Positions 29,474 through 59,742 of a DNA stretch of 64,000 bases are shown piece after piece. Made by a program: the position numbers and the translations under genes. The notes under the pieces were generated by a model, which ran no database searches, was not told where the DNA came from, and saw only the letters and a program-made list of their open reading frames with translations. Source of the stretch: Xanthobacter aminoxidans (GTDB lineage: Bacteria; Pseudomonadota; Alphaproteobacteria; Rhizobiales; Xanthobacteraceae); the NCBI RefSeq assembly GCF_023571765.1, contig NZ_JAMJXC010000002.1:62001-126000 (forward strand), read 5' to 3'. Within the stretch, counting starts at the first letter, position 1. Each line of letters begins with the position of its first letter.

Positions 29474-29491
29474 GGATTGCGCGAGGCCGAC
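29474..29491 (-). promoter_or_regulatory. Weak FtcR-box candidate before flgD
   Basis: GTCGGCCTCGCGCAAT matches 12 of 16 positions of the flagellar motif. It lies 36 bp upstream of flgD in the only sizeable gap (91 bp) between flaF-flbT and fliR. CGAG follows nine bases after the second half-site, as at fliF. Confidence 0.35.
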
Positions 29492-29528
29492 CTTGCGGGC
29501 GGCCTTGCCGGCAACCGCGCGGAACGCG

Positions 29529-29939
29529 TCAGGCGACTTTCGGCGGCACGGCGCAGTTCAGGATCGCCTCCTCCAGCGGGAACATGCCCCTGAGCGCCTT
29601 CAGCGCCTCGAACGTGCGCCCCTCGCCGACGAGGCGGCCCGCGTCGTCGAGGTTCATCAGGATCGCGGGCTTGGTGAAGGTGGTCATCAGCGACGCCAGC
29701 TGACGGAAGAACAGCCCGCGTGCGGCATCGGCATTCGCCGGGTCCACCAGCAGCGACTGCGCCACGAAATAGAGCTGGCGCAGCGGCGTGGTGGTGTCTT
29801 CCGGCTGCATCACGTGGCTCTCCAGCAGGAAGGTCGCGTCGTTGAGCAGTTCCAGCGTCACCTTGCGGTCCACCTGGAAGACGGCGCCGTTGAGAAACAG
29901 CTTTTCGCCGGCCTTGAGGGAGATGTGCATGGACTTCAT
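29529..29939 (-). CDS. flbT: Flagellin synthesis repressor FlbT
   Basis: A 136-residue FlbT with the typical start MKSMHISLKAGEKLFLNGAV, then VDRKVTLELLNDATFLLE and QLYFVAQ. In Caulobacter, FlbT binds the 5' leader of flagellin mRNA and limits its stability until the hook is complete. Its target here may be the hairpin-rich leader of fliC at 49247-49299. The second of two adjacent ATG codons (29939) is preferred from family alignments; the first, at 29942, overlaps the flaF stop. Confidence 0.93.
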   Translation of the reverse strand: MKSMHISLKAGEKLFLNGAVFQVDRKVTLELLNDATFLLESHVMQPEDTTTPLRQLYFVAQSLLVDPANADAARGLFFRQLASLMTTFTKPAILMNLDDAGRLVGEGRTFEALKALRGMFPLEEAILNCAVPPKVA

Positions 29940-30286
29940 CATTTCAGGCCATCCCGGATCGCGCGATTGACGTCGATGAGCATGGGAATGTCGCCGCCCG
30001 TGCCGGAGATCAGGCGGTCGCACTCCTGGATCACCCACAGGCCGAGGGAGGCGAGCGTCCCGCGCAGCTCGCGCGGCAGCTCGTTGTTGGCATCGGCAAG
30101 ATCGCTGATGAAGAAGCCCCAGAGCTTCTGCAGATAGGCGACCGCCGCCAGCACCTCGCGCGAGCCGGGCTCCGCCTTGGCCGCGAGGGTGAGCAGATTC
30201 ACCGCTTGGTCGAGGGCGAGGCGCTCACGCTCGCGGTTGAGCGTCGCGGACTCGTCAAGTATTTCCGCGTAGGAGAATCGGTACAT
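29939..30286 (-). CDS. flaF: Flagellin biosynthesis regulator FlaF
   Basis: A 115-residue helical protein with FlaF features: SYAEILDESATLNRERERLALDQAV at the start and LQKLWGFFISDL in the middle. FlaF is needed for flagellin secretion or translation and acts opposite to FlbT, with which it forms an adjacent pair in alphaproteobacteria. The ATG at 30286 has GAGG upstream; a GTG three bases earlier is the alternative. It begins 14 bp after the flgL stop codon. Confidence 0.93.
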   Translation of the reverse strand: MYRFSYAEILDESATLNRERERLALDQAVNLLTLAAKAEPGSREVLAAVAYLQKLWGFFISDLADANNELPRELRGTLASLGLWVIQECDRLISGTGGDIPMLIDVNRAIRDGLK

Positions 30287-30300
30287 CACGCACCCTCATG

Positions 30301-31350
30301 TCAGATGTAGTTCAGGATGCTCAGCTGCATCACCTTTGACGTGGTCGCGTAGGACATCTGCAACTGCGTCGTCAGGGTGTCGAGGCGGGTCTTCGCCTCG
30401 GCGGGGTCGACCCCTTCGAGGACGTTGATCCTCCGGTCGACGAGATCGGACACCTTGGCCAGCGCCTCGTCCGCCGCGTCCACCCGGGACTTGGACACCC
30501 CGAGCTGCGCGGACAGCGCAACGACGCCGCTCACGCCCGCGCCGGCAACAGTGACGGCCTTGTCCAGTACCACCTTGCGGGTCGCTTCCGAGAGGGAGGC
30601 TGTGCCAAGCTCCGACACCATGGTGAATGCCATGGCAAGGTTGCGCATGGCTGTCGTGTTGGCGGTGGTGGTGACGGGAACGCGCGCGGTGTCGGAGATC
30701 TGGCTGGTCAGCGCCTCGTCGGACGCGCCGGACCAGTTCGCGCCCCACGCGGGATCGGCGAACAGGTCCTTGAAGGCGCCGTCGAGGAAGGACGACATGT
30801 CGGCGGCGGAGATATCCGCCACCTGCGGGTCCGCCTGCGGGTTCGCGGGATCAAGCCCGAACGCGCCGGCGAACGCCGCATTCACCACCGCCTTGGGGCC
30901 GGTCGCGTAATCGGCCATGGGCTTTTCGGCGCTGTTGATGCCGGCGAACAGGTAGCGCTGCCCGTCCGTGGCGTTCAAATGCGCGGTGAAGGCATCGAGC
31001 GCCGATTTCGCCTGATCCGCGAGGATGGCGCCGGAGGCGTTGCCCGCCTGCCCGGCGAGGATGTCCTTCAGGAACTGGTTGGCGTCGTCCGAGATCTGCG
31101 AGAGCGCCACCTGGCTGTGGCCGAGCAGGCTCGAAGCCAGCGCATTGCCCTGCTTCTGCGACAGGATCGCGCCGCGCGCCAGATGCAGCGCCACGCTCTC
31201 CCCCGTCGCGATGCCCAGCGTCAGGCCCACGTCCGCCTGCCGGCCGGTGGCGATTTCGGTGGTGGCCTTCGAGATGTCCGATTGCAGCTTCGGCAGCGCC
31301 GCGCGGGACGGGGAGGTCCAGGCGAGGGTGGAGATGTAGGTGCTGCGCAT
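30301..31350 (-). CDS. flgL: Hook-filament junction protein FlgL (HAP3)
   Basis: A 349-residue flagellin-like junction protein. The N-terminal coiled-coil region (about 15-150) includes LQSDISKATTEIATGRQADVGL and the C-terminal helix ends LQMSYATTSKVMQLSILNYI, the family signature. It links FlgK to the filament. It starts three bases after the flgK stop, so flgE-flgK-flgL-flaF-flbT form one transcription unit. Confidence 0.95.
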   Translation of the reverse strand: MRSTYISTLAWTSPSRAALPKLQSDISKATTEIATGRQADVGLTLGIATGESVALHLARGAILSQKQGNALASSLLGHSQVALSQISDDANQFLKDILAGQAGNASGAILADQAKSALDAFTAHLNATDGQRYLFAGINSAEKPMADYATGPKAVVNAAFAGAFGLDPANPQADPQVADISAADMSSFLDGAFKDLFADPAWGANWSGASDEALTSQISDTARVPVTTTANTTAMRNLAMAFTMVSELGTASLSEATRKVVLDKAVTVAGAGVSGVVALSAQLGVSKSRVDAADEALAKVSDLVDRRINVLEGVDPAEAKTRLDTLTTQLQMSYATTSKVMQLSILNYI

Positions 31351-31353
31351 GGC

Positions 31354-32808
31354 TTAGCCGATCATCTGGAAGAGGCTGTCGTAGAGCTGGTTCACCACGC
31401 CCATCAGCTTGGACGTGGCCTGATAGCCGCGCTCCAGTTCGAGCTGGCTGGCATATTCGTCGTCGAGGTTCACGCCGGTGGCGGCGGAAAGCGCGTTGGA
31501 GGCCTGCGCCAGCACCGTCTTCTGGGAATCGAGCCGGGTGTCCGCCGCCTTGCGGGCGCCTTCCAGCCAACTCACCGAGGCAGTGCCGAAGGAGACGAGG
31601 CTCTGGTTGTCGGAGAGTTGCGCCGCACCGTCATAGGAGCGGGGCGCGTCGAGCGCGGCGGACAGCGCCTTCAGCCGGCCGGCGAAGCTCGCCGCGCCTG
31701 AGGTGTTGGCGGCGAAGGGCGCGCCGTTCATGCCGCCGTCGCGCAGCAGGCGGATGTCGCCGCCCTGCCCTACGTCCACGGCCGCGTTCACCGCGAGCGT
31801 TCCGGCGAGGCCGGGCGAAAGACCGCCGGGCACCGTGGCGCTGCCCGCGGCGGGCACGAACAGGCCGGCGCGCGTGTTGCCCGCGCCGTCGGTCTCCTTG
31901 AACGCGTCGGTGAGGCCGCGCGCCAGTTCGTCCAGCTGGGTCTGGTAGGTGCTCGCGGCGTCGTCGCGCAACTGGGTGAGACCGGCGATGCGGCCGGTGC
32001 GCACCGGCATGGTGGCGTCGCGCCCCGTCACCGACACGCCGTCCACGAACACGCTGCCGCCCTGCGTGTTCGCATCGAGCGTGTGGGCGGGGGTGAAGCC
32101 CACCGTGCGGGCGGTGGTCTCGAACAGGGTCGCGCCGCCCTCGGTGTAGATGACGATGTCGTTATTGGCCCGCGTCACCGTGGAGATGCCGATCTCCTCG
32201 GAAAGTCTGGCGAGGATGGAATCGCGGCGGTCCAGCGCATCGGTCATGTCGGCGCCGGCGGCGCTGCCCTTCACGATGGCGCTGTTCTCCGCCTCGAACT
32301 GGTGGAGCAGGTCGTTGACGGTCCCGACCGACGTGGCAATCGCCGCATCCGCATCCGTGCGCACCTGCTGCACCGTGTCCGTGGCGGTGTTGAGGGAGGA
32401 GGCGAGGTCCTGCGCGGCGGTCACGGCCGCCTGGGCGAGGGTCATGTCGTCCGGCGTGTCGGCGGCGCGCGCGAGCGCATCCTTCAGCGTGCCGAGGCGG
32501 GCGACGGGGGAGGTCGGGTCCTGCGGGTCGCCTACGGTCTGGGCGAGGCGGCCGAGGCCATCGGCGAGGGCCTGCTGCGCGGCGCTGTCCGAGGTCGCGC
32601 CCAGCATCCGCTCGAACAGGGCGCTGCCCGTGGCGCGGGTGATGGAGACCACCCGCACCGAGCCGTCCGCCGCCGTGGTGGTGACGGCGATCTTGCGCGA
32701 GGCGGAAGCCTCGCCCGCCCCCGCCACGTTGCGGCTGGACAAGGCGATCTTCGCCGAATTGGCGGCGAGCGAGGACTGCGCCGTGTTGAAGGCGAGGGAG
32801 AGGCTCAT
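31354..32808 (-). CDS. flgK: Hook-filament junction protein FlgK (HAP1)
   Basis: A 484-residue FlgK. It begins MSLSLAFNTAQSSLAANSAK, a HAP1-type N-terminal helix, and contains the DALDRRDSILARLSEEIGI segment conserved in FlgK. It ends with a coiled coil YASQLELERGYQATSKLMGV and NQLYDSLFQMIG. It forms the first junction layer on the hook. It lies 32 bp after flgE. Confidence 0.95.
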   Translation of the reverse strand: MSLSLAFNTAQSSLAANSAKIALSSRNVAGAGEASASRKIAVTTTAADGSVRVVSITRATGSALFERMLGATSDSAAQQALADGLGRLAQTVGDPQDPTSPVARLGTLKDALARAADTPDDMTLAQAAVTAAQDLASSLNTATDTVQQVRTDADAAIATSVGTVNDLLHQFEAENSAIVKGSAAGADMTDALDRRDSILARLSEEIGISTVTRANNDIVIYTEGGATLFETTARTVGFTPAHTLDANTQGGSVFVDGVSVTGRDATMPVRTGRIAGLTQLRDDAASTYQTQLDELARGLTDAFKETDGAGNTRAGLFVPAAGSATVPGGLSPGLAGTLAVNAAVDVGQGGDIRLLRDGGMNGAPFAANTSGAASFAGRLKALSAALDAPRSYDGAAQLSDNQSLVSFGTASVSWLEGARKAADTRLDSQKTVLAQASNALSAATGVNLDDEYASQLELERGYQATSKLMGVVNQLYDSLFQMIG

Positions 32809-32840
32809 GATGCACCCGTGCGCGGCGCGGCGGCGTCAGG

Positions 32841-34097
32841 TCAGCGCTTCAGGTTCATCAGCACGTCGAGCAGCTCGGTGCCGGTCTGGAACACCTTGGA
32901 ATTGGCGGTGTAGTCGCGCTGCGCCACGATCATGCGGGTGAGTTCGGAGGCCATGTCCACGTTGGACTGCTCGGTGGCGCCGGAGAGCAGCGAACCGACG
33001 CCGCCCTCGTTGGGAAAGCCGATCTGGATGGCGCCGGAATCCAGCGTGGTGCTGTAGGCGTTGCCCGTCAAAGGCTCCAGCCGATCCGGGCTCTGCACGG
33101 TGCCCAGCGGAATGCGGTAGATGGCGGATTTCCGGCCGTTGGCATCGGTGGCGTAGACGGTGCCGTCCTTGGCGATGGAGAAGTCGGAGATGGGGCTCGG
33201 CGCATTGCCGTTCACGCTGGCGGTGAAGGGCGTGTAGGGCGCCGCGAGCTGGGACATGCCGGCGAGATCGAGCGTCAGCGTCGCCCCGTTCGGCACGGCA
33301 AGCGAGATGCTGCCGCCGGAGGTGAGCTTGCCGCTGGCGTCGAAGGTCAGCGTCTGGGTGGAAAGCGGGCCGGACGCATAGGGGAAGGTGCCGTTGGCGG
33401 GGGCGGCGGCCTGGTCGTAGACCGCAAGCTCCCACACGCCCGGATTCTCGGCGGTCTTGGTCATGTAGAGATCGAGCGTCACCGCATTGCCGAGGTTGTC
33501 GTAGGCGACCAGCGAGGACTTGTCGGTGAAGCTCGCGCCCGCAACGTTGGCGCCGGCGGTGGGGGCGGTGGCGACCGCCGCATTGGACGGCAGGTTCGCC
33601 GCGAACGTGCCCTCGGTGGAGGGCGTCGCCGCCAGCTTGGTGTTCTGGAGGTTGATGGGCACGAGGCCGGCCGTGCCGTTCAGCACCACGTTGGGATCAC
33701 CCGCGGAGACATCGTAGCCCATCAGGGTGAGGCCGGCGCTGTTCACGAGGTTGCCGGTGCTGGCATCCACCTGGAACGAGCCCGCGCGGGTCAGCTGGGT
33801 CTGGCCGGACGGGTCGTTGACGAGGAAGAAGCCCGAGCCCTGCACCGCGAGATCGGTGGAGGACGAGGTGTAGTTCAGCGCGCCCTGCTGGCTGATGGCG
33901 TAGCGCACGTCCGTATTGACCGAGCCGGACTGATATTCCGTGCCGCCGGTCTCCAGCAGCAGCGAGGAGAATTGGGTGTCGGCGCGCTTGTAGCCCGCGG
34001 TACCGGCATTGGCGATGTTGTCGGAGACCGTGCCGAGCAGGTTGGATTGCGCGGTCATCCCCGACACGCTGGTGCGCAGCATTCCGTAAAGGCTCAT
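32841..34097 (-). CDS. flgE: Flagellar hook protein FlgE
   Basis: A 418-residue hook protein. The N-terminal rod motif SDNIANAGTAGYKRADTQF and the C-terminal motif MASELTRMIVAQRDYTANSKVFQ mark it, with the hook-specific central beta domains (GLVPINLQ, SFTDKSSLVAYDNLGN) between. GAGGA eight bases before the ATG at 34097 supports this start over one at 34163. It is preceded by a 105-bp gap that contains a candidate FtcR box, so a promoter for the flgE-to-cheR gene series is likely here. Confidence 0.96.
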   Translation of the reverse strand: MSLYGMLRTSVSGMTAQSNLLGTVSDNIANAGTAGYKRADTQFSSLLLETGGTEYQSGSVNTDVRYAISQQGALNYTSSSTDLAVQGSGFFLVNDPSGQTQLTRAGSFQVDASTGNLVNSAGLTLMGYDVSAGDPNVVLNGTAGLVPINLQNTKLAATPSTEGTFAANLPSNAAVATAPTAGANVAGASFTDKSSLVAYDNLGNAVTLDLYMTKTAENPGVWELAVYDQAAAPANGTFPYASGPLSTQTLTFDASGKLTSGGSISLAVPNGATLTLDLAGMSQLAAPYTPFTASVNGNAPSPISDFSIAKDGTVYATDANGRKSAIYRIPLGTVQSPDRLEPLTGNAYSTTLDSGAIQIGFPNEGGVGSLLSGATEQSNVDMASELTRMIVAQRDYTANSKVFQTGTELLDVLMNLKR

Positions 34098-34183
34098 GGC
34101 TCGGTCCTCGTCGCGGTCTGAAAGGGCGCGCCCGCCGGAAGGAGGAGCCTGCGCCAGTGTCATCGCCGCATCTGAGGGCGGAT

Positions 34184-34201
34184 GGCTTGCGCGGGGCTGG
34201 A
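34184..34201 (-). promoter_or_regulatory. Candidate FtcR box upstream of flgE
   Basis: TCCAGCCCCGCGCAAG matches 13 of 16 positions of the motif and is followed nine bases later by CTCA. It lies 86 bp before the flgE start in the fliI-flgE gap. This would give the hook, export and chemotaxis genes a promoter separate from DUF1217-flgF-fliI. Confidence 0.55.
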
Positions 34202-34202
34202 C

Positions 34203-35540
34203 TCAGCTCTTCAGCGCGGCCGCGAGATCGGAAAAGGCGGCAAGGCTCGGCGGATCGCCGGGGTCCTGCCGCAGGGCGTCGTAGATGCGCGGCACGATGG
34301 CCACGGCCTGATCCAGCTCGCCGTCGGCGCCGGGCTGGTAGCCGCCCATCAGGCGCAGGTCGCGCGTGTCCTCGAAGCGGGCGATCATGGCCTTCAGCCG
34401 CCGCACCAGATCGCGCTCCGGCTCGCTCCACACCTCGCCGGCCAGCCGCGAGATCGAGCCGAGCAGATTGATGGCGGGAAAGCGCCCCTGGTCCGCGATG
34501 GCGCGGTCGAGCACGATGTGGCCGTCCAGCGTGCCGCGGATGGCATCCGCCACGGGATCGTTGTGGTCGTCGCCATCCACCAGCACGGAGAAGATGCCGG
34601 TGATGGCCCCCTCCCCCTCCATCCCCGGCCCGGCCCGCTCCAGCAGCTTCGGCAGCGTCGAGAAGACGCTGGGCGCATAGCCCCGCGCCACCGCCGGCTC
34701 CCCCGCCGCCAGCGCCACGTCGCGCGCGGCATGGGCGTAGCGGGTGACGGAATCGACGATGAGCAGCACGCTCTCCCCGGCATCGCGGAAATATTCCGCC
34801 ACCGCCAGCGCCGCCTGCGGCGCGAGCCGGCGCATCATGGGGCTCTGATCGGACGTGGAGACGATGACCACCGCCCGGTCACGGCTGGCGGCGAGCGGGC
34901 CTTCCAGAAACTCCCGTACCTCGCGCCCGCGCTCCCCCACCAGCGCCACCACCACGGTATCGAAACCGGCCGAGCGCGCGAACATGGAGAGCAGCGTGGA
35001 CTTGCCCACGCCCGAGCCGGCGAAGATGCCGATGCGCTGGCCCTCGCATATGGGGGTGAAGATATCCACCGCGCGCACCCCGGTGACGAGCGGCCGATGC
35101 ACACGCCCGCGCGCCATGGCGGGCGGCGGCTCGGCATCAAGCGGCATCCGGCACGGGCCATGGGCCAGCGGCTCGGACCGGTCCAGCGGGCGACCCAGCG
35201 CATCGATGACGCGCCCCTTCCAGGAACGATCCGGACGGAGCGCGAGGGGGCCGATGCGGAAGGCCGGCGTGCCGATGCCCACCGACACCCGCTCGTCGAA
35301 CGGCTTCACCACCGCGCCCGCCGGATCGATGCGCACCACCTCGCCGATGCTGGTGCCTGACGCCTGCTCGAAGCCCACGCGCTCGCCGAGCGTGACGAAG
35401 CTGGAGAGGCCGGAGACCCGCACATGGGTCGGCGCCACCTCCCGCACGATGCCGCCGACGCGGACGATGGGATTTTCCTCGAGGCCACTTTCTACGGCGT
35501 GGCGCAGGCGCTGGAGCGCGTTGACCGGGGGCGCGCTCAT
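34203..35540 (-). CDS. fliI: Flagellar export ATPase FliI
   Basis: A 445-residue ATPase related to the F1 beta subunit. The Walker A motif GSGVGKST lies near residue 174 and Walker B is in SVLLIVDSVTRYAHA. Other conserved runs are LVGERGREVREFLE and YAPSVFSTLPKLLERAG. It dissociates export substrates from chaperones at the base of the export gate, regulated by FliH (52547). The start overlaps the flgF stop by 4 bp. Confidence 0.97.
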   Translation of the reverse strand: MSAPPVNALQRLRHAVESGLEENPIVRVGGIVREVAPTHVRVSGLSSFVTLGERVGFEQASGTSIGEVVRIDPAGAVVKPFDERVSVGIGTPAFRIGPLALRPDRSWKGRVIDALGRPLDRSEPLAHGPCRMPLDAEPPPAMARGRVHRPLVTGVRAVDIFTPICEGQRIGIFAGSGVGKSTLLSMFARSAGFDTVVVALVGERGREVREFLEGPLAASRDRAVVIVSTSDQSPMMRRLAPQAALAVAEYFRDAGESVLLIVDSVTRYAHAARDVALAAGEPAVARGYAPSVFSTLPKLLERAGPGMEGEGAITGIFSVLVDGDDHNDPVADAIRGTLDGHIVLDRAIADQGRFPAINLLGSISRLAGEVWSEPERDLVRRLKAMIARFEDTRDLRLMGGYQPGADGELDQAVAIVPRIYDALRQDPGDPPSLAAFSDLAAALKS

Positions 35541-36259
35541 CCCGGACCAAGCTCGCGAATGGTCTGCGAGGTGGAATCTTCGGTCTGCGACACGGCGGAG
35601 GCGGCCATCTCGAAGGCGCGCTGGAGGGCGATGAGGCGCGTCATCTCGGTGACGGCATCCACGTTCGCGCCTTCCACGAAGCCCTGCCGCACCACGTTGC
35701 GGGTGTAGTCCTGCACCAGCGCGGCGGACTTGTCCGGCACCACCAGCGCACCGTCGCGGCGCGCAAGCTTCGCGTCCTCCGGGATCAGGAACAGGCCGAC
35801 ACGGCCGATGGGGCGGCGGTTCTGGGAAATGGAGCCGTCGGTGCCGATGCGCACGGTGCCGCCGGTGGGATCGATGACCACCGGCGCGCCGGAGGCATCG
35901 AGGATGGGCCGGCCGGAGAGCGTGCGCAATTCGCCCTCCGGGCTCATGCTCATCCGCCCATCGCGGGTATAGGCGGTGGTCGCGCCGTCGCGCACCGCGA
36001 ACCAGCCCTTGCCCTCCACCGCGATGTCCAGCGGATTGCCGGTGGGGTTGATCGGCCCCGACTTGCGCGAGGTGTAGGTCTCGCCGGTGGAGGTGAAGGA
36101 CACGCCCTGCCCCCCGGCCCTGGAGACCATCTCCTCGAACCGCACCTCTTCCGCCCGGTAGCCGGCGGTGTTGAGATTGGCCACGTTGTTGGCGATGGTG
36201 GTCAGGCGCTTGTCGGCGGCCAGCTGCGCCGAGAGCGAGACGTAGAGACCTGAGCCCAT
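35537..36259 (-). CDS. flgF: Flagellar basal-body rod protein FlgF
   Basis: A 240-residue rod protein with the N-terminal motif IANNVANLNTAGYRAEEVRFEE, the central NPLDIAVEGKGWFAV segment, and the C-terminal MTRLIALQRAFEMAASAVSQ helix. FlgF is the proximal rod subunit that stacks with FlgB, FlgC and FlgG. It starts one base after the DUF1217 gene stop and overlaps fliI by 4 bp. Confidence 0.93.
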   Translation of the reverse strand: MGSGLYVSLSAQLAADKRLTTIANNVANLNTAGYRAEEVRFEEMVSRAGGQGVSFTSTGETYTSRKSGPINPTGNPLDIAVEGKGWFAVRDGATTAYTRDGRMSMSPEGELRTLSGRPILDASGAPVVIDPTGGTVRIGTDGSISQNRRPIGRVGLFLIPEDAKLARRDGALVVPDKSAALVQDYTRNVVRQGFVEGANVDAVTEMTRLIALQRAFEMAASAVSQTEDSTSQTIRELGPG

Positions 36260-36260
36260 C

Positions 36261-37025
36261 TCAGCCTCCGTATTTCAGGTTGAGGATAGAAAAGGAGGCC
36301 GCGCTCGACGTGCGGACAGAGAAAAGATCGAGCACCGGGGCGGCATCCACGCCCTGCGCCACGTCCCACTTGGCGCTGAAGCGGCGCAGCAGCGCATCGA
36401 GCTTCGCCGGCTCCTTCAGGTCCGCGATGTTGAGCTGCGCCTTCACCGCCTTGGCCTGCTTCTCGATGGGGGCGGCCGCCATGGCGTCGGGAAAGTCGTA
36501 GATGGTCTTCACCACCTTCCAGAGCGCGGGATCGGCCAGCAGGCCGTAGACGGATTTCACGGCGGGGGCCTGGCGCTGGAAATAGAGCGCGAGCTGCACG
36601 CCCTCGTTGCTGGCGCCCTGGTCCGCCTCCAGCGCCTGGCGCACGTAGCGGTCCACCACCTTCTGCCCCGCCTCGGGCGATTGGGTGGCGGCGGCGCCGA
36701 GGCCCTTGAAATCGAACACCTTGGCGAAGGCCTTGAAGCGATCGTCGTTGAGCTTGTTGGCGAAGCTCTTGGGATCGGTCACGCCCTCCTTCAGCACCTT
36801 GCGCATGTAGCCCTTGGCATAGGCCATGTCCTCGAGGCCGAACGCCTTCATGGCATAGGTGAAGAGCCGGGTATCCTTCAGAAAGCCGTCGATGCTCGTC
36901 ACCTTGCCGATGTGCTTGAGGTAGTAGCCCGATTCGAGCGCCACCGGCTTCTCGGCCGCCTTGGTCGACAAGGAGCGCGTCATGTCGCGCGCCAGCAGGC
37001 GGTAGGTGAGGAGCGTGCTTTCCAT
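36261..37025 (-). CDS. DUF1217-family flagellar-cluster protein
   Basis: A 254-residue protein of the DUF1217 family, found next to flagellar genes in rhizobia but of unknown molecular function. It has no signal peptide or membrane span and is mostly helical. Recognisable segments are KVTSIDGFLKDTRLFTYAMKAFGLED, YAKGYMRKVLKEGV and the C-terminal VLDLFSVRTSSAASFSILNL. It is the promoter-proximal gene of the DUF1217-flgF-fliI unit, with a strong FtcR-box candidate 67 bp upstream. Confidence 0.8.
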   Translation of the reverse strand: MESTLLTYRLLARDMTRSLSTKAAEKPVALESGYYLKHIGKVTSIDGFLKDTRLFTYAMKAFGLEDMAYAKGYMRKVLKEGVTDPKSFANKLNDDRFKAFAKVFDFKGLGAAATQSPEAGQKVVDRYVRQALEADQGASNEGVQLALYFQRQAPAVKSVYGLLADPALWKVVKTIYDFPDAMAAAPIEKQAKAVKAQLNIADLKEPAKLDALLRRFSAKWDVAQGVDAAPVLDLFSVRTSSAASFSILNLKYGG

Positions 37026-37092
37026 GGGAGCATCCGCGGGGAACAGGGCGCGCGCGGCGGGAGGCCGGCGGCCGGCCTATTCCGCATGCCCT

Positions 37093-37110
37093 GCCTTGCG
37101 TGAGCCTTGC
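37093..37110 (-). promoter_or_regulatory. Candidate FtcR box upstream of DUF1217-flgF-fliI
   Basis: GCAAGGCTCACGCAAG matches 15 of 16 motif positions with both half-sites intact. It lies 67 bp before the start of the DUF1217 gene. Confidence 0.65.
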
Positions 37111-37385
37111 GGGCTTAAGGCGCTCAATATGTGAGGATTTTCGGGATCAGCCCAGCGCGGACCGGAAGACGTCATCTCTGACACCCCCCGGTCCGGCCAC
37201 CCCGTGCCGGTCAGGGCTAGGCACGGGATATCGAAGGCTTCGCAACGGCCGAACATGCAACCAGAAAGGCCGGCGAGCCAAGACGCGAGTTGTGTAGCAT
37301 GCACAACCCAAAGAGGGCAGAACAATCCATTCCATTTTGGCGGTGATTATGGAGTGAACGCGGGTCATTGCAAGGATCGACAGAG

Positions 37386-37403
37386 CACAGCCTCGCACAA
37401 TCC
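37386..37403 (+). promoter_or_regulatory. Candidate FtcR box upstream of motA
   Basis: CACAGCCTCGCACAAT matches 12 of 16 positions. The second half-site is followed nine bases later by CTAC, as CTAG follows at flgB and motE. It lies 41 bp before the motA start. Confidence 0.5.
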
Positions 37404-37444
37404 TCGCCCCCTACCACCGGACACTGGACAGAACGGGGGAAGCC

Positions 37445-42538: not shown

Positions 42539-42554
42539 GCCAGCCTCGGGCAAG
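42539..42554 (+). promoter_or_regulatory. Candidate FtcR box upstream of flgB
   Basis: GCCAGCCTCGGGCAAG matches 14 of 16 motif positions and is followed nine bases later by CTAGGA, a -10-like element. It lies 69 bp before the flgB start, in the 92-bp gap. Confidence 0.6.
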
Positions 42555-46299: not shown

Positions 46300-46315
46300 G
46301 CAAGCGTCGCGCAAG
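46300..46315 (+). promoter_or_regulatory. Candidate FtcR box upstream of motE-flgH-fliL-fliP
   Basis: GCAAGCGTCGCGCAAG matches 15 of 16 positions. CTAGAC follows nine bases after the second half-site. It lies 80 bp before the motE start, just after the flgI stop. Confidence 0.65.
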
Positions 46316-46395
46316 TCTCTCCCCCTAGACCTCGACCATCCAAGGCGCCCGTGCCCCCGCCCGGCGCCGCCCCTCGGGGAAGAGGAGGAGGTTCC

Positions 46396-49156: not shown

Positions 49157-49172
49157 GCAAGCCTCGCGCAAG
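49157..49172 (+). promoter_or_regulatory. Candidate FtcR box upstream of fliC
   Basis: GCAAGCCTCGCGCAAG is a 16 of 16 match to the motif. It lies 220 bp before the flagellin start, leaving a leader of roughly 190 nt if transcription starts just downstream. Confidence 0.65.
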
Positions 49173-49246
49173 CTTGCGCGTTTAACGTTTCTCCCATGGC
49201 AGGTTGACCGGCTCCGCAAGGGCCGGGTGCTGGACCCCTAGAGCGA

Positions 49247-50742: not shown

Positions 50743-50758
50743 GCAACGCCCATGCAAG
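50743..50758 (+). promoter_or_regulatory. Weak FtcR-box candidate upstream of fliF
   Basis: GCAACGCCCATGCAAG matches 12 of 16 positions with GCAAC and GCAAG exactly 11 bp apart. CGAG follows nine bases later. FtcR is known to act on the fliF promoter in Brucella, which supports this weak site. Confidence 0.45.
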
Positions 50759-52550: not shown

Positions 52551-53212
52551 GCACCACCGCGCTTCTCAACCACCTGCCCCATTTCGGCGTCGCGCCGCGC
52601 GGACAAGCCAAAGGCTCCGCCCCGGTGAGCGCCGTGCCGCCCGTTCCCGCGATCACGCCCACGCCCGCCTTGCGGCCGCACGAGCAACCTGGCGCCGAGG
52701 CCCTCCGCGCGGCGGCCGAGGAGGCCCGCCGTGTGGCGCTGGAGGAGGCGGCCATCGCCCTCGCCGCCTGCGAGCAGCAGCTCGCCGATGCCGAGGCCGC
52801 CTTCGCCGCGCGCCTCGAAGAGGAGATCGGCGAGGCCCGCGCCCGCTGGTGCGCCGAGGAAAGCGCGCGGCTGGCCTACCTCATCGGCACCGGCCTCGAC
52901 ACAGTGGAGGCGCGCCTCTCCGAAGCGATCGCAGCCGTGCTGCGCCCCTTCGTGGGCGGCGCCGCCCGCGCCCGCGCGCTCGACGAACTGGCCCGGCGGG
53001 TGCGCGAGCTTCTGCGCGGCGGGGCGGCTGGCCCGTCCATCACCATCACAGGCTCGGGCGACCTCGCTGCGGCACTATCCGCGCGGCTCTCGGACGTGCA
53101 GGGCATCGTTCTCGCGGAAGGACCGGCGAGCGACCTTCGCATCACCTGCGACGACAGCGTGCTGGAAACCCAGCTCTCCGGCTGGGCGGCCGCTGCCGCC
53201 CGCGGCAACTGA
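52547..53212 (+). CDS. fliH: FliH-like regulator of the export ATPase
   Basis: A 221-residue protein. A Pro-rich N-terminus (about 15-50) is followed by an Ala/Glu-rich coiled coil (about 55-125) and a C-terminal domain with a DAALSARLSDVQGIV-type segment. This is the FliH/V-ATPase stalk layout; sequence similarity is low, as usual in alphaproteobacteria. It would hold FliI at the C-ring through FliN. The ATG at 52547 overlaps the fliF stop, and motB follows after 12 bp. Confidence 0.78.
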   Translation: MSTTALLNHLPHFGVAPRGQAKGSAPVSAVPPVPAITPTPALRPHEQPGAEALRAAAEEARRVALEEAAIALAACEQQLADAEAAFAARLEEEIGEARARWCAEESARLAYLIGTGLDTVEARLSEAIAAVLRPFVGGAARARALDELARRVRELLRGGAAGPSITITGSGDLAAALSARLSDVQGIVLAEGPASDLRITCDDSVLETQLSGWAAAAARGN

Positions 53213-53224
53213 CGGGAGCGCGCC

Positions 53225-54376
53225 ATGTCCGGCAAGGAGCCCCACGGCGAGATCATCATCGTCAAGCGCCACGATGACGAGGAGCACGAGCACCATTCGA
53301 GCGCCTGGAAGGTCGCGCACGCCGACTTCATGACGGCGATGATGGCCTTCTTCCTCATCATGTGGCTCATCAACGTCACCGACAAGGATACACGCAAGGC
53401 CATCGCCAACTACTTCAACCCGGTGGACCTCGCCTCCAGCATCACCGACGTGCGCGGGCTGAACGATCCCGAGGACACCAAGGCCAAAGGCACGTCTTCC
53501 GACGGCGACAAACAATCCAGCCTCAAGAACACCACGGGGCGCGAGACCGGCGCCGGCGACGACCGCCAGCAGGGCGACAAGGAGCGCGCCGCGTTCCGCG
53601 ATCCCTATGCGGTGCTGAACAAGCTGGCCGGCGATGCCGACGCGCGGGCGGGCGGCACGCCCGACGCCGCCGTCGGCGATACCGGCTCGCCCGGCACGGG
53701 CGCCGGCGACGTGAACCGCGATCCGTTCGATCCCACCTATTGGCAGATGTCCAGCGGCCGACAAGCGCGCAACCCGCAGGCCAAGCCCTCCAAGGTGGAC
53801 CAGCCCTCCGGCCGCCCGGACGCCACCACCGGCGCCGCGAAGCCGGGGGAGGCGGAGAAGGCTCAGGCCGAGAAGGCGCAAGCGGCCGCGGCGCAGGCCG
53901 CGGCAGCCGGCAAGGCGGCACGCGATCTGGAAAGCGAGCTGAAGCAGGTGGTCGCCGCCACCGTGGGCACGCCCGGCGCAGCACCGCGCGTGGACGTGCG
54001 GGCGACGAAGGAAGGTCTCATCGTCGATCTCACCGACGATCTCGACTTCACCATGTTCCCGGTGGGCTCGGCGGTGCCGGACGCCCGCTTCGTACGGGCC
54101 ATGGGTGAGATCGCCAAGAAGCTCGGCGCGCGGCCGGGCGAGATCGTCATTCGCGGCCACACCGATGCGCGGCCGTTCCGCTCCGACACCTACGACAACT
54201 GGCGGCTCTCCAGCGCGCGGGCGCACATGGCGCTCTACATGCTGGTGCGCGGCGGCCTCGACGAGAAGCGCGTGACCGCCATCGAGGGCCTCGCCGACCG
54301 CAATCTGAAGAACACTGCCGATCCCAACGCGCCGCAGAACCGGCGCATCGAAATCCTGCTGAAGGCGCCCTCATGA
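53225..54376 (+). CDS. motB: Flagellar motor stator protein MotB
   Basis: A 383-residue stator protein. A charged N-terminus precedes one membrane span (about 35-53) with the proton-binding D34 in HADFMTAMMAF. A long Ala/Gly-rich periplasmic linker (about 85-240) leads to an OmpA/MotB peptidoglycan-binding domain (about 250-383) with VIRGHTDARPF, NWRLSSARA and PQNRRIEI. The linker is longer than in enteric MotB (308 residues). It overlaps motC by 4 bp; motA is encoded far away at 37445. Confidence 0.95.
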   Translation: MSGKEPHGEIIIVKRHDDEEHEHHSSAWKVAHADFMTAMMAFFLIMWLINVTDKDTRKAIANYFNPVDLASSITDVRGLNDPEDTKAKGTSSDGDKQSSLKNTTGRETGAGDDRQQGDKERAAFRDPYAVLNKLAGDADARAGGTPDAAVGDTGSPGTGAGDVNRDPFDPTYWQMSSGRQARNPQAKPSKVDQPSGRPDATTGAAKPGEAEKAQAEKAQAAAAQAAAAGKAARDLESELKQVVAATVGTPGAAPRVDVRATKEGLIVDLTDDLDFTMFPVGSAVPDARFVRAMGEIAKKLGARPGEIVIRGHTDARPFRSDTYDNWRLSSARAHMALYMLVRGGLDEKRVTAIEGLADRNLKNTADPNAPQNRRIEILLKAPS

Positions 54377-56685
54377 CCCGGCCCGGCCTTCTCCTCCTCT
54401 TCGCCGGCGCCCTGCTGCTGCCCGGCGCCGCCCGCGCCGAGGACGACGCGGACCCATGGGACGGCCTGCGTGGCGAGACCGCCGCCCCCGCACGCCCCGC
54501 CACGGCCAGACCGGCGCCGACGAAGCCGGCCGCACCCAAGCCGGCCACACCGAAGCCCGCGACGACGACCTCCGGGACCGCGACCCCGGGCACGCCAGCA
54601 GCTGCGGCGGCCAACGCCGACAAGCCGGCGCCAAAGCCTGTCGCGCCCAACACGGTCGCACCGAAGCCGGCACCGACGGCGGCCGCCCCCGCGCCAGCGC
54701 CGCCTGCCGCAGCTGCCGCCCCGCCCAAGCCCAACGCGACGCAGAACGCGGCAGCCCCCTCCGGCACCGTGCCGAGGCCCCCCGCAGCCGAAGCAATGAA
54801 CGCCGCCGCCCCGAAACCCGCTGCGCCGCCGCCGGCGCCCAAGCCCGTGGCATCCCCGGCACCGGCCGCGCGTCTACCGGGCGCAACGTCCCCAGCGCCC
54901 CCGGTTGCGTCGGGAACATCCGTCCCGGCTGCGGCACCCAAGCCCACAGCAGCAACCCAACCGGCGGCGACAAAACCTTCAGTCCCATCGAATCCCGTCG
55001 CGGCAACCAAACCCGCGACGCTTCCCGTGACACCGCCCGCGACGCCACCTCAGCCCGCGCCCAGACGGACGCCCGACACGGCGCCCGGACCGGCCCCACG
55101 TCCCGCCGTGGCGCCGTCCGTGTCCGCATCGGCGGTCTCCGCCTATGCCCCCCTTGGGCCTTTCCCTATGCCGCTGCCGCCCCGCCGTCCCCTGCCGTCC
55201 GAGCCAGCGGTGCCGATGGCACCTGCGCGGGCTCCGGCCGCTGCGCCGGCTCTAGCGCCGCCCCCAGTCGCGGCGGAGGCGGGCGGAATCCCGGCCGGGA
55301 CGACGGCTCTCCCCCTCGCCGAGACGACCGGGGCCGGCACGCCCCCGGCTTCCGAGCCCATGGCGCCCATTCCCGAGCCCGTCCCGACCGCCGCTCCCGC
55401 CGCCCAAGCCGCAGCGGAATTGGCCGATGACGCCCATCCCGCGCCCGCGCCGGATCAGCCGGCTACCCACGCGGACGCATCCGCGCCCCACGCCACGTCC
55501 GCCGAGGCCGCCCCGCCCGCCGGCCGCACCGATATCTATCCCGTCACGCTGGTGCGCCGTCTCCAGCGGTTGCAGGATCTCATCGCCTCCGGCTCCACCG
55601 CCGGCATCGCCCAGCAGCGGGCGATGATCACCGAGATGGACGCAGCCTTCGGCGATGCCGATGCCTCCGTCTGGCAGGACCCGGCCAATGCCCGCGCGCT
55701 GGTGATGTATTTCCTCGGCGGCGGCAATCCGGCGGTGCTGCGCGGCATCATCCAGCGTGAGCCGAAGCCGAACATCGACGAGAAGCTGCTCACCGGCAGC
55801 CTGCTCTATCTGGAGGGCCGGGAGGAACCGGCCCTGCGCCAGCTCGGCGAGATCGACGCCCGCAAGTTGCCCAACGGCATCGGCGGGCAGATCGCCCTCG
55901 CCCAGGCGGCGCTCACCGTGCGTAGCGACCCGGCCAAGGCTTCGCGGCTGCTGGAGGTGGCGCGCCTCCTCATGCCCGGCACGCTGGTGGACGAGGCGGC
56001 CCTGCGCCGGGCCGTGCTGGTGGCGGCGCAGGCCGGCGACCTCGACCAGTTCGAGCGTCTGTCGGGGCAGTATTTCAGCCGCTTTCGCCATTCCGCCTAT
56101 GCCGGCAACTTCCGCCAGCGCTTCGCCGCCGCCTTGAGCCGCATGAACGTGCTGGCGACGCCGGACGGCCTCGCGCGCCTCGACGCCCTGCTCGCGCCCC
56201 TCGACGAGGAAGCCCGGCGCGAGGTGTTCCTGCTGGTGTCGCGCTCGGCCATCGTGGAGGGCAAGACCGCGCTCGCCACCACCGCCGCCGAGCGCGCCAT
56301 GCTGCTGGCACCGGCGGCGAGCCGCGATGCCGAGCGCGCCCGCGTCTATCTGAGCGCCGCGCAGGCGGCGACGCCGGATCGCTACCAGGCGGCAGAGGCG
56401 GCGCTGAAGGCCATCGACCGCGCCCGCCTCGACCCCTCCGACCAGGCGCTGCTGGAGGCCGCGAGCCGCACCGCCGAGCTGATCCGCCGCGCCGATGAGG
56501 CGCCTTCTCCGGCGCCTTCCCCGGCTCCTGCCCCCTCCTCCGCGGCAGCCCCGTCCGCTCCGGAGGTCGTCGCCAGCGCCCAGCCGGTGCGGACGGCGGG
56601 AAACGAGAAGCCCTCGGCCGCACTGGCGAAGGCGCAGGTGAAGCTCGGGGAGATCGATACCCTGCTGAAGGATGCGCCGCGATGA
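54373..56685 (+). CDS. motC: Periplasmic motility protein MotC with long Pro/Ala-rich region
   Basis: A 770-residue secreted protein. The signal peptide ends ARAEDD near residue 24. Residues about 30-385 are extreme in composition (mostly Pro, Ala, Lys, Thr with PKPA-type repeats). The folded part starts at TDIYPVTLVRRLQRLQDLI and is helical, solenoid-like, with MotC-type segments such as NARALVMYFLGGGNPAVLR. MotC in Sinorhizobium binds MotB and keeps the stator open; that protein is near 430 residues, so the insert nearly doubles the length. It overlaps motB and fliK by 4 bp each. Confidence 0.85.
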   Translation: MTRPGLLLLFAGALLLPGAARAEDDADPWDGLRGETAAPARPATARPAPTKPAAPKPATPKPATTTSGTATPGTPAAAAANADKPAPKPVAPNTVAPKPAPTAAAPAPAPPAAAAAPPKPNATQNAAAPSGTVPRPPAAEAMNAAAPKPAAPPPAPKPVASPAPAARLPGATSPAPPVASGTSVPAAAPKPTAATQPAATKPSVPSNPVAATKPATLPVTPPATPPQPAPRRTPDTAPGPAPRPAVAPSVSASAVSAYAPLGPFPMPLPPRRPLPSEPAVPMAPARAPAAAPALAPPPVAAEAGGIPAGTTALPLAETTGAGTPPASEPMAPIPEPVPTAAPAAQAAAELADDAHPAPAPDQPATHADASAPHATSAEAAPPAGRTDIYPVTLVRRLQRLQDLIASGSTAGIAQQRAMITEMDAAFGDADASVWQDPANARALVMYFLGGGNPAVLRGIIQREPKPNIDEKLLTGSLLYLEGREEPALRQLGEIDARKLPNGIGGQIALAQAALTVRSDPAKASRLLEVARLLMPGTLVDEAALRRAVLVAAQAGDLDQFERLSGQYFSRFRHSAYAGNFRQRFAAALSRMNVLATPDGLARLDALLAPLDEEARREVFLLVSRSAIVEGKTALATTAAERAMLLAPAASRDAERARVYLSAAQAATPDRYQAAEAALKAIDRARLDPSDQALLEAASRTAELIRRADEAPSPAPSPAPAPSSAAAPSAPEVVASAQPVRTAGNEKPSAALAKAQVKLGEIDTLLKDAPR

Positions 56686-58121
56686 GGACCGCCGACCTCG
56701 CCTTGGCGGCCTTCGCCCTGAACCCCGATACCGCCGCCGGCCGCGAGCCCCTGCCGCAGGACGGCCCGCCCTTCGGCGACCTGCTTAGCCTGATGGAGGA
56801 TGCCCGCCCGGCGCCCCGCCGCGAGGGGGAGGCGCTCCGCGACGATGCAACGGAGCCGCTCCCCGCCGAGCCCCTGCCCCGCCTCCCGGCGGCGAGCCTC
56901 GACCGGCTGCTAGCGCGCTGCGAACGCCCCGCCCCGGAGCGCGGCGGGATCGACACCGCCCCCGCTCCGCGCGCCGCGCTGGTCCTGCCGCCGCAGGACA
57001 CACGCCCCATCGACGCCGCCGAGACCGAGGCCGAGCCGCCCACCGACACGCCCGCGCCCGACACACCTCTCCAGCCGGCCGCCATGCCGCTCGTCGCGAT
57101 ATCGCCCGCGCCAGTCATGGACGCGAGGCACACGCCGGCGGCGGACGTCGCGCCCCGCGCTCAGACGATGCCGGCGCCCGTTCCACTGGCGGCGCCGGCG
57201 GGGTCGGCGGACGCTCCGCCGCCGATGCAACTCGTGGTGCTGCGGCAGGAAACGCATTTCGCGCCGGTGCGCACCTTCACCCAGCCCGCAGCGGCGCCCC
57301 TGCCCGTGGCGCGGGCCGACACGCAACGCGCAGCGTCCACGCGCGAAGCGACAGGCGCGCCGGCAGCGGACGCCCCTTCCCCGGACCTCGACCCACAGGA
57401 AAACCGGATGCCGGTCCGGCCGCTCCCCCCGCGCGCCGCGCCCGACGAGACCCAGGGCGACCCGCCCCAACTCCGTCGCCTCGCCCCGGACCCGAGCCAG
57501 GCGCCCGCCCGGCCCACCGTGCCCGTGGCGGAACCGCCGAAGCTCCAGCCCGCCCTCAAGCCGGAGGCATCCCCCGCGCTGCCCTTCGCCAGCCTTGCGC
57601 AGGTCGGCCGCGCCATCGCGGCGGAGGTGGCGCAGATCGATCCCGCCGCGGCGGGCGCCCCGGCCGGGGGCGCGATCGAGGTCCCGGAGAGCGGTGCCCC
57701 GACCGGCCCGGTGCGCGTGCTCGACATCGCGCTTTCACCGGAAACGCTGGGGCGGGTGGTGGTGCACATGCGCCTCACCCCGCACGGCCTCACCGTGCGC
57801 CTCAAGGCGGACAACCCGGCCACCGCCGAACTGCTCGCGGCCGACAAGGACCATCTCTCCGCCCTCCTCGGCTCGGCCGGGCTCACCGACGTGGAGCTGG
57901 ACGTCGGCGGCCCCGTCCTGTCGCAACTCGATGCGCCGGTGCGCAGCCTTGCCGCGATGGAGAACCTGCCTCCGCAGGAGAGCGCGGACGAGGGGCAAGG
58001 CGGCGGGCGCGGCAGCACCGACCCCGGCCGGCAGGGTCGCAACGGCCGGCAGGACAGGACATTTCCCGATGACGACGCTGCGCCTTCTTTTGCTGACGAG
58101 CCTCGCGCTGGCGCCGGTTGA
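56682..58121 (+). CDS. fliK: Flagellar hook-length control protein FliK
   Basis: A 479-residue protein. The first 330 residues are Pro/Ala-rich and disordered, as expected for the ruler part of FliK. The conserved C-terminal domain (about 345-425) has LDIALSPETLGRVVVHMRL, GLTVRLKADNPATAELL and LSALLGSAGL. It measures hook length and switches FlhB export specificity. It overlaps motC by 4 bp and the next gene by 53 bp. Confidence 0.9.
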   Translation: MRTADLALAAFALNPDTAAGREPLPQDGPPFGDLLSLMEDARPAPRREGEALRDDATEPLPAEPLPRLPAASLDRLLARCERPAPERGGIDTAPAPRAALVLPPQDTRPIDAAETEAEPPTDTPAPDTPLQPAAMPLVAISPAPVMDARHTPAADVAPRAQTMPAPVPLAAPAGSADAPPPMQLVVLRQETHFAPVRTFTQPAAAPLPVARADTQRAASTREATGAPAADAPSPDLDPQENRMPVRPLPPRAAPDETQGDPPQLRRLAPDPSQAPARPTVPVAEPPKLQPALKPEASPALPFASLAQVGRAIAAEVAQIDPAAAGAPAGGAIEVPESGAPTGPVRVLDIALSPETLGRVVVHMRLTPHGLTVRLKADNPATAELLAADKDHLSALLGSAGLTDVELDVGGPVLSQLDAPVRSLAAMENLPPQESADEGQGGGRGSTDPGRQGRNGRQDRTFPDDDAAPSFADEPRAGAG

Positions 58122-58890
58122 GGCGCGCTGCGGCGACGCATCCGCCGCGTTCGGCCCCCCCGTCGCCGGCGAGACGGAGGATGTGGCGGCCGAACCTCAG
58201 CTTCCGATTTCCGCTCCCCCTGCCCCCACACGGCCCATCTGGGGGGAGCGACGCCCGTCTGAGCCGCGGCAAACCGTGCCCCAGAAGGTGGAGCCGGCGA
58301 CGCCCGTCTCCGGCCAGGCGGTGGCTTCACCCCCGAAGAAGGACGCCGGCCGAAAGCCTGTCCCACACGGCATCTGCGAGCGCGAGCTGGCGCGGGCGGC
58401 GGCGAAGTATCAGATTCCGTTGCAGATCCTTTACGCCGTCGCGCTCACCGAGAGCGGCACCGGCAGCGGCCTCCAGCCGCTGATGCTGCACATCGAGGGC
58501 AAGGACCATCTGCCCGCTTCGCTGCCCGAGGCCCTCGCCATGTTCCGTGCCGCCAACGATCGCGGCGTGAAGCTCATCGACATCGGCTGCATGCAGGTGA
58601 ACTGGTACTGGCACCGGGAGGAGTTCCGGACGCTGGAGGAGATTTTCGATCCGCGTCTCAACGTGGAACAGGGCGCGCGCTTCCTGAAGGAGCTGCGCCA
58701 GCGGCACGGCAGCTGGACCATGGCGGTCGCCCGCTACAATGCCGGGCCGAAGAACACCGCAGGGCAGCATCGTTATGCCTGCAAGGTGATGAAGAATCTC
58801 GTGGCCGCCGGGGTGGGGGAATGGACCGCCACCTCCGAGGCCTTCTGCGCCGCGCCGCCCGTGCCGCCGGAGGCTGCGCGCGCGGAGTGA
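58069..58890 (+). CDS. Periplasmic lytic transglycosylase (SLT domain)
   Basis: A 273-residue protein with a signal peptide (residues 1-21), a Pro-rich linker (about 30-95) and an SLT goose-lysozyme-like domain (about 100-250). The catalytic glutamate is E128 in VALTESGTGSG; GCMQVNWYWH and AVARYNAGPKN are the other conserved motifs. It cleaves peptidoglycan without water. It overlaps fliK by 53 bp in another frame. Because the CheL/FlgJ protein here lacks a muramidase domain, this enzyme probably opens the wall for the rod; that is an inference. Confidence 0.88.
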   Translation: MTTLRLLLLTSLALAPVEARCGDASAAFGPPVAGETEDVAAEPQLPISAPPAPTRPIWGERRPSEPRQTVPQKVEPATPVSGQAVASPPKKDAGRKPVPHGICERELARAAAKYQIPLQILYAVALTESGTGSGLQPLMLHIEGKDHLPASLPEALAMFRAANDRGVKLIDIGCMQVNWYWHREEFRTLEEIFDPRLNVEQGARFLKELRQRHGSWTMAVARYNAGPKNTAGQHRYACKVMKNLVAAGVGEWTATSEAFCAAPPVPPEAARAE

Positions 58891-58944
58891 GGTCTGGCCG
58901 GGAGCAGGCGGGATGCGGACCGCACCCCGACTGCTCCACGCCCC

Positions 58945-59643
58945 TCAGGCGAACAGGCTGTCGATGTCGTCCTGAGAGACCACACCCACGTCGTGAGCCA
59001 GCGCCGGCCCGTTGAGGAGGGCCTCGTCGCCCTCACGGGGGATGATGCGGGCGCCCTGGGCCACGAGATCGGCCCCGCCCCAGATGTCGGTCATGCGCGC
59101 CACCCGTTCCTCGATGAACAGCAGGAGCTTCACCACCTTGCGGATGCGCTGGCCGGTGATGTCCTGGAAATTGCAGGCCTCGAAGATCTTGGTCGTCTCG
59201 TTCTGCATTTCGGTGGCGAGGTCCGCCGCATCGCCGGTGAGCAGGGCGTGCATCTGGATCATCAAGGCATCGACCCGCTCGGCGGAGGTGAGGATGGCTT
59301 CGGTCGCCTCCTCCGTGTCGGTGACGACCGCCTCCAGCTCGCTGGTGGCGCGCAGCAGCTTCTCGCCCCGCGCGCCTTCGGCGTGCAGGCTCGCGATCTC
59401 GTGCTTGGTGTGCTGGATGGCGTCCTGGATGGTCTCGATGCCGGCCCACAGCACGTTGCGGTCGCGCTCGCGATCGACAGCGGGATCGCGCGTCTTGAAG
59501 CGCGCGATCTCCTCGCGCACCTCGGCGAGCTCGCCGAAAATGCGACGCAGATGGTCGTCGAGGCCATCCATCGCGAAGAGGTCGACGGCGGCGCCGGCGG
59601 AACTCGGGGTCTCAATCCTGAAGGGTCGCCGGGCAGCCGACAT
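58945..59643 (-). CDS. cheZ: Chemotaxis protein phosphatase CheZ
   Basis: A 232-residue helical protein of the alphaproteobacterial CheZ family. The long helical hairpin (about 25-190) contains the active-site motif ACNFQDITGQRIRKVV, where the glutamine attacks CheY-phosphate. After a flexible region, the C-terminus ends SQDDIDSLFA, like the CheY-binding tail of enteric CheZ. GGAGG six bases before the ATG at 59643 decides the start. It is divergent from cheY (59827). In Azorhizobium, cheZ and cheY1 are likewise outside the main che cluster. Confidence 0.88.
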   Translation of the reverse strand: MSAARRPFRIETPSSAGAAVDLFAMDGLDDHLRRIFGELAEVREEIARFKTRDPAVDRERDRNVLWAGIETIQDAIQHTKHEIASLHAEGARGEKLLRATSELEAVVTDTEEATEAILTSAERVDALMIQMHALLTGDAADLATEMQNETTKIFEACNFQDITGQRIRKVVKLLLFIEERVARMTDIWGGADLVAQGARIIPREGDEALLNGPALAHDVGVVSQDDIDSLFA

Positions 59644-59726
59644 TAGGGCCTCCTGAAACACGCTATGCTTTCCACTCTCCTATAAATCGTCCCAGATGAT
59701 TGAGGAAGATGACCCCAATTCTTGGT

Positions 59727-59742
59727 GCAAGCCTCACACAAG
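59727..59742 (+). promoter_or_regulatory. Candidate FtcR box in the cheZ-cheY divergent region
   Basis: GCAAGCCTCACACAAG is a 16 of 16 match to the motif, oriented toward cheY and 84 bp from its start. It lies 83 bp from the cheZ start and may also act on it. Confidence 0.65.

Follow-up and report, generated by a model that had tools for sequence, protein, structure and literature searches.

The 64,000-nucleotide stretch of the Xanthobacter aminoxidans genome studied here (contig NZ_JAMJXC010000002.1, positions 62,001 to 126,000 of the forward strand; hereafter ‘the window’) carries a cluster of flagellar and chemotaxis genes together with ftcR, the gene of an OmpR-family flagellar regulator. 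A first-pass annotation, made from the letters alone, had reported a 16-bp direct repeat in nine of the gaps before these genes and had paired it with FtcR. All nine sites were present with the match scores claimed for them, but the left ends of the minus-strand copies were 2 bp off (corrected in Table 1). The consensus had been built from the very sites that it then counted, and the matrix was therefore rebuilt from other genomes.

An unseeded expectation-maximization (EM) search of 34 motA upstream regions from relatives, with the window excluded, recovered the box together with a -10-like element at a fixed distance, gcCAGCcTCGCGCAAG...CTAg, in its fuller form gcCAGCcTCGCGCAAGcCA....gcCTAg. 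The log-likelihood was 445.5, compared with 92.5-96.1 for three shuffled sets. Applied to the window, this first model placed fliC, flgB, motA, cheY, flgE, motE and flgD (14.5) at the top, and the maximum of the background, 400 kb of the same genome (~ 0.8 million positions), was 14.4. A second model of 32 columns was built from 233 sites of other genomes, leaving out the window, a near-identical Xanthobacter and locus L197 (f, G and L numbers are labels of families, genomes and loci); its background maximum was 12.1. With this model, nine window sites scored above every background position, each of them facing a flagellar or chemotaxis gene. They comprise eight of the nine sites listed before and an unlisted one at 25495 on the minus strand, before a FlgJ-like rod-binding gene. 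As stray sites in the genome score equally high, the DUF1217 and fliF sites rest on their conservation.

Table 1. Positions of the predicted FtcR boxes and of ftcR in the window (scores from the 32-column model).
Feature	Position	Strand	Remarks
Predicted FtcR box of fliC	49157..49172	+	Score 32.4, rank 1 in window; -10 TAACGT 49183-49188
Predicted FtcR box of flgB operon	42539..42554	+	Score 29.2; -10 TAGGAA 42565-42570
Predicted FtcR box of flgE operon	34186..34201	-	Score 24.6; -10 TCAGAT 34175-34170
Predicted FtcR box of cheY	59727..59742	+	Score 23.4; poor -10 CAGAAC
Predicted FtcR box of motE-flgH-fliL-fliP	46300..46315	+	Score 22.1; -10 TAGACC 46326-46331
Predicted FtcR box of motA operon	37386..37401	+	Score 18.7; -10 TACCAC 37412-37417
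Predicted FtcR box of FlgJ-like rod-binding gene	25480..25495	-	Score 18.5; 15/16 match; absent from first-pass list
Predicted FtcR box of DUF1217-flgF-fliI	37095..37110	-	Score 14.8, equalled by stray genome sites; poor -10 CGGAAT
Predicted FtcR box of fliF operon, GCAAC variant of first half-site	50743..50758	+	Score 14.0, equalled by stray genome sites
Doubtful site before flgD	29476..29491	-	Score 10.7, under background maximum 12.1
Possible weak box before chemoreceptor gene 15481-17157 (minus), adjoining ftcR	17239..17254	-	Score 7.5; -10 TAGGAC 17228-17223
ftcR, 228 aa, Trans_reg_C winged helix, receiver without phosphoacceptor Asp	17280..17966	-	

The weak site previously listed before flgD found no support, as it barely reached the background of the first model and fell below that of the second. 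No box was seen in the flgD regions of five relatives or in two Ancylobacter ones; the site recurs only in a near-identical Xanthobacter and was rejected. At the chemoreceptor gene beside ftcR, the possible box is matched or exceeded in score by 4 background positions. The first ATG of the FlgJ-like open reading frame (24846-25478, minus strand) overlaps the promoter element, so that translation probably starts further downstream.

Layout and conservation of the box

The box and its -10 element can be written [G/T]C[C/A]AG-N6-GCAAG-N10-TAnnnT, and with TAnnnT as the -10 the box would span roughly -38 to -23; a -35 element is absent. The direct repeat with an 11-bp period that had been claimed was borne out by column counts in 230 non-redundant sites from outside the window: the half-sites stand head to tail, with NCAAG at columns 11-15 in 93% of the sites and AG at columns 3-4 in nearly all. 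These sites were picked through the 16-mer alone, its matrix coming from the unseeded search, and they include two named loci that duplicate training promoters. TA was found at offset 10 in 66% of them and at the remaining 27 offsets in 0-7%, with T at hexamer position 6 in 54%. Removal of the duplicates of training promoters and of L197 left TA at offset 10 in 66% of 220 sites. With the motA sites removed, the value was 55% of 146 (at most 10% at any other offset), T stood at hexamer position 6 in 74%, and columns 3-8 of the box read AGCYTC. The tetranucleotides CTAG, CTAG, CTAC and TTAA described nine bases after the second half-site were confirmed at flgB, motE, motA and fliC, respectively; the fixed distance held as well, but the element is better written TAnnnT, the housekeeping -10, than CTAG.

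As had been noted for the window, the copies almost always point toward the gene. Across relatives, sense and antisense matches numbered 80 and 0 in 80 upstream regions of flgB, 24 and 1 in 94 of flgE, 9 and 0 in 24 of fliC, 7 and 0 in 10 of fliF, and 14 and 0 in 72 of motE, as tallied with a scoring model partly trained on those same promoters. From its sequence, the element appears to be a whole promoter of PhoB-like layout, with the repeat in the -35 place at a fixed spacing from a sigma-70-type TAnnnT. Pho boxes likewise sit in the -35 place, ten bases before the -10, as the box of the window genes does. They differ from it in that they are of the CTGTCAT rather than the GCAAG type; FtcR differs from the pho regulators in its lack of a phosphoacceptor Asp and in its flagellar targets. 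PhoB and PhoP belong to the OmpR/PhoB family and act by class II activation with the regulator contacting sigma-70 (PMC4415409).

Conservation in relatives, which the first-pass annotation had proposed as a check, was clear. Besides its unseeded recovery, the motA box was present in 75/78 non-duplicate named genomes, including Ancylobacter, Bradyrhizobium, Mesorhizobium, Methylobacterium and Phyllobacterium; 2 of the 80 named loci had been dropped from this tally as duplicates of training promoters. The genomes are related, so that counts across them are not independent. In the same named loci, the box preceded flgB in 47/51, DUF1217 in 35/57, flgE in 14/64, motE in 9/49 and fliC in 0/5, and the relatives' loci gave 25/29 for flgB, 11/26 for DUF1217, 9/26 for flgE, 7/19 for fliC, 3/9 for fliF and 1/23 for motE. 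The motE and flgE tallies are rough, as gene starts were placed by tblastn, flgE can match paralogues and motE starts are uncertain. The operon-internal genes fliM, fliG, flhB, flgC, flgG, flgI and fliP had the box in 0 of 24-34 upstream regions each. With motA excluded, matches scoring at least 10 were ~ 22-fold denser before flagellar gene starts than elsewhere (63 vs 31 matches). A box lies at -90 to -104 of cheY in G066, G137, G116, G111 and, weakly (9.2), G039, and cheY of G073 also has one (10.5); the FlgJ-like gene has one at -12 to -26 in G066, G116, two Ancylobacter and three further loci. The GCAA[CT] variant of the first half-site also occurs before fliF in several relatives.

Under strict matching, the genome scan that had been suggested showed enrichment of the motif in the flagellar cluster. 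Within the window, 11 matches with at most 3 mismatches to the 16-mer were found where 3.98 ± 2.00 were expected, a number reached by 0/100 shuffles, and 5 of the 6 sites with at most 1 mismatch in the whole genome (5,823,613 bp) lie inside it. At most 2 mismatches to CAGCCTCGCGCAAG-N9-CTA were found at 7 places in the genome: 5 in the flagellar cluster, 1 before a gene for a PAS-chemoreceptor and 1 inside overlapping long frames. The chemoreceptor site is a strong box with a -10 (C15:378908-378933, L148; score 26.5) ending 90 bp before the gene, which is hence a predicted member of the regulon far from the flagellar cluster. Another box-like site (C37:347359-347374, L015; score 16.2) stands 69 bp upstream of a reading frame whose beginning resembles that of an exported protein. 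If box and -10 are as exact in position as they appear, the regulon could be predicted in other genomes, and specific point mutations suggest themselves as tests.

Co-occurrence of the box with FtcR

FtcR is the only protein of the window that matches Trans_reg_C (E 1.5e-13). Its receiver, which gave no match to Pfam Response_reg, carries Gly where three other receivers of the window carry Asp, which agrees with reports that Rem and LafR act independently of phosphorylation (PMC9812332, PMC8429497). The recognition helix was nearly invariant in 30 aligned FtcR orthologues, which included some of the loci outside the window's group (its own genus, close genera and families f15, f24 and f39).

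Among 149 genomes of the order, FtcR orthologues were clear in 40 at E < 1e-40, the next best match after E 2.8e-43 being at 1e-18. Of the 80 named genomes, 40 were searched for FtcR, and all 40 have it. A pattern including the -10 gave 125 matches in 39 FtcR-positive genomes (reversed control 64) vs 13 in 32 FtcR-negative genomes (control 53), the latter sampled from 109 such genomes; exact matches occurred in 17/39 and 0/32, respectively. The pattern was drawn from motA promoters, and by our reading 18 of the 125 matches are motA sites; with these left out, 107 matches remained, with exact ones in 12/39 FtcR-positive vs 0/32 FtcR-negative genomes (p 3e-4). An FlhA homologue is encoded in 24/32 FtcR-negative genomes, in 22 of them at 42-47% identity, and an absence of flagella therefore does not account for the difference. 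The box accompanies FtcR and not flagella as such. MotA of the window was found in 34/38 FtcR-positive and 3/32 FtcR-negative genomes searched, one of the three weakly; motA lacked the box in both FtcR-negative loci whose MotA match was good. The MotA and pattern counts omit G103, which has an FtcR fragment at the end of a contig, and count G058 (partial FtcR) as FtcR-positive.

G039, G073 and several Methylobacterium have two FtcR-like copies per genome. Plasmid pMVF16-3 of Microvirga sp. VF16 (L176) carries an FtcR homologue of 50% identity whose 20-kb flanks on both sides contain no annotated flagellar genes.

In Sinorhizobium meliloti (L173 and L174), boxes were found before motA, DUF1217-flgF, fliF, flgB, flgE and orf38 (319 bp before) and before the stretch where flhA is expected, with a weak one (8.9) before a rod-binding gene. 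The names rem, visNR and orf38 and the letters of the flagellins are those that we presume for this region, where the record gives products only and flhA is unannotated, its start being placed by hand. A scan of the region showed no box facing the flagellins, the che genes, visNR or rem. The boxes thus mark mainly class II genes attributed to Rem, the FtcR orthologue, for which activation of class II genes, orf38 among them, is reported (PMC8429497). In two environmental Brucella species and one Falsochrobactrum, a box lies 65-66 bp before fliF, and FtcR of B. melitensis is reported to bind upstream of this gene (PMC9456535). Deletion of actR in Azorhizobium led to loss of flagella and to lowered levels of eight flagellar transcripts (PMC8639532). 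FtcR (Brucella), Rem (Sinorhizobium, Agrobacterium), LafR (Bradyrhizobium) and ActR (Azorhizobium) are the same or homologous regulators tied to flagellar genes (PMC8429497, PMC9456535, PMC8639532), and the flagellar master regulator of plant-associated, soil and animal-associated bacteria is concerned. The box differs from what is published, as the sole motif that we found in the parts of the literature available, TGTGGGCA, does not occur in box promoters. No operator like the box is described for FtcR, Rem, LafR or ActR in these parts; an earlier description is possible, and the RhizoBindingSites database may hold one.

FtcR and other candidate explanations

We consider it highly probable that the motif is the operator of FtcR as an orphan OmpR/PhoB-type regulator and orthologue of Rem, LafR and ActR. 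The pairing is supported by the repeat geometry, by the co-occurrence in genomes and by the Rem and Brucella fliF promoters. Its docking would involve two FtcR winged-helix domains bound head to tail on [G/T]C[C/A]AG and GCAAG at a distance of 11 bp. With the box in place of the -35 element, FtcR would hold the housekeeping RNA polymerase on the TAnnnT that follows after ten bases. A single regulator whose receiver lacks the phosphoacceptor Asp would in this way switch on most flagellar operons of the cluster together with flagellin, cheY and some chemoreceptors. FtcR binding, activation, start sites and the use of sigma-70 are what we infer here, and the pairing keeps this standing because the published Brucella study reports another motif.

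Several observations weigh against an FtcR operator. In that study, the motif from chromatin immunoprecipitation (ChIP) of FtcR is TGTGGGCA, found in 118/363 peaks and unlike the box; gel shifts on ftcR and betI fragments were lost on its mutation, and autoregulation of ftcR is reported (PMC9456535). No box was seen before ftcR. Genome-wide, the bare 16-mer at up to 3 mismatches is not specific (228 matches vs 165 for the reversed control), nor is the 16-mer with CTA at 3 mismatches (26 vs 21), so that the looser forms of the motif are common. Besides the PAS-chemoreceptor site, five sites elsewhere in the genome exceed 12.1 (22.6, 16.2, 14.5, 13.6 and 12.9); three or more of these, the highest included, lie within long frames, and the 400-kb background sample therefore understates strays. 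These came from a re-examination of extra-cluster sites, 13 from the bare 16-mer and 18 from the CTA form with one shared, most of them inside long open frames, and both lists are output of pattern searches, not of a full genome scan. A good box is missing from 3/78 named motA promoters, and the cheY and DUF1217 boxes of the window have poor -10s. The two FtcR-negative loci with a good MotA each have one match of at least 10 elsewhere in 20 kb, and in S. meliloti such matches lie inside motC (17.5) and flhB (10.7), with an antisense one (15.0) after flaD. FtcR and the flagellar cluster are co-inherited, so that another factor passed on with them would show the same co-occurrence.

A different regulator, inherited together with the flagellar cluster, might accordingly bind the box, with FtcR acting upstream or elsewhere. 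This reading is compatible with the co-inheritance and draws on the gel-shift-backed Brucella motif, and a candidate, a receiver-MarR gene (14640-15413, plus strand), lies near ftcR in the window and likewise in G066, G137, G116 and G111. However, direct repeats of 11 bp suit OmpR/PhoB winged helices, of which FtcR has the only one recognized in the window, and no receiver-MarR gene is annotated in the box-bearing region of S. meliloti. Moreover, TGTGGGCA was absent from the upstream regions of motA (0/116), flgB (0/81), DUF1217 (0/83), flgE (0/95), fliC (0/24) and fliF (0/10), and also from the surroundings of the three Brucella-group fliF boxes. We therefore regard a different regulator as improbable. 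A weak box was observed before the receiver-MarR homologue in G137 and G073.

The fixed spacing between box and -10 is also what the promoter of an alternative sigma factor would show, the box then being the -35 and TAnnnT the -10, with no activator site. A tandem 11-bp repeat would be an unusual form of -35, however, and TAnnnT is of the housekeeping form; FliA exceeded the curated cut-off in 0/26 genomes, although all 26 have weaker sigma-factor matches. An alternative sigma factor is thus very unlikely, and a FliA (sigma-28) promoter was rejected. Chance or composition, with a hand-made consensus matching GC-rich sequence between genes, could account for loose matches and for strays in unrelated frames, and single weak sites could still be due to it, but for the whole set it is next to inconceivable and was rejected in view of the unseeded rediscovery in other genomes, the nine window sites above all sampled background, the lack of antisense matches in 80 flgB upstream regions and the density before flagellar starts.

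Flagellin promoters

In most relatives of the window's group, the fliC box lies at -187 to -199 of the gene. It was found in 14/15 cases of the group, namely in 8/8 relatives' loci (weakest 11.9), in the window, in L190, L192, L284 and L286 (one N-terminal fliC start each) and in one of the two full-length copies of L194. Matches to fliC were first collected with a 100-bit filter and then again unfiltered, the 8 relatives' loci being from the unfiltered set. The consensus of CtrA, another response regulator, is TTAA-N7-TTAA, and a CtrA-like site (at most 1 mismatch) preceded fliC in 1/13 loci of the group (L194 was outside this test); at fliC of the window it is missing, the best match having 3 mismatches. 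At other FtcR-positive loci, fliC had the box in 1/11 and a CtrA-like site in 7/11, one with both, and the S. meliloti flagellins had the box in 0/4 and a CtrA-like site in 4/4. Of 100 random 300-bp chunks per locus, 0-7 contained a CtrA-like site. Among control promoters, the site was found in 0/11 motA, 0/11 flgB and 0/11 flgE of the window's group, and outside it in 1/23, 5/18 and 0/19, respectively.

CtrA is reported to control flaA, flaB and flaC of S. meliloti directly (PMC4433202). The window resembles this system in the predicted control of flagellin by a response regulator and differs in that its fliC carries an FtcR box in place of the CtrA site. The box points to a possible switch of regulator at flagellin promoters. 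To judge from these promoter sequences, the chances are about even that the flagellin promoter changed its master regulator during the evolution of Hyphomicrobiales, with an FtcR box in the window's group, and with CtrA for flagellin and FtcR/Rem for class II only in most other lineages examined. If this is true, early and late flagellar genes would share one switch in the window's group, where flagellin and cheY both have the FtcR box.

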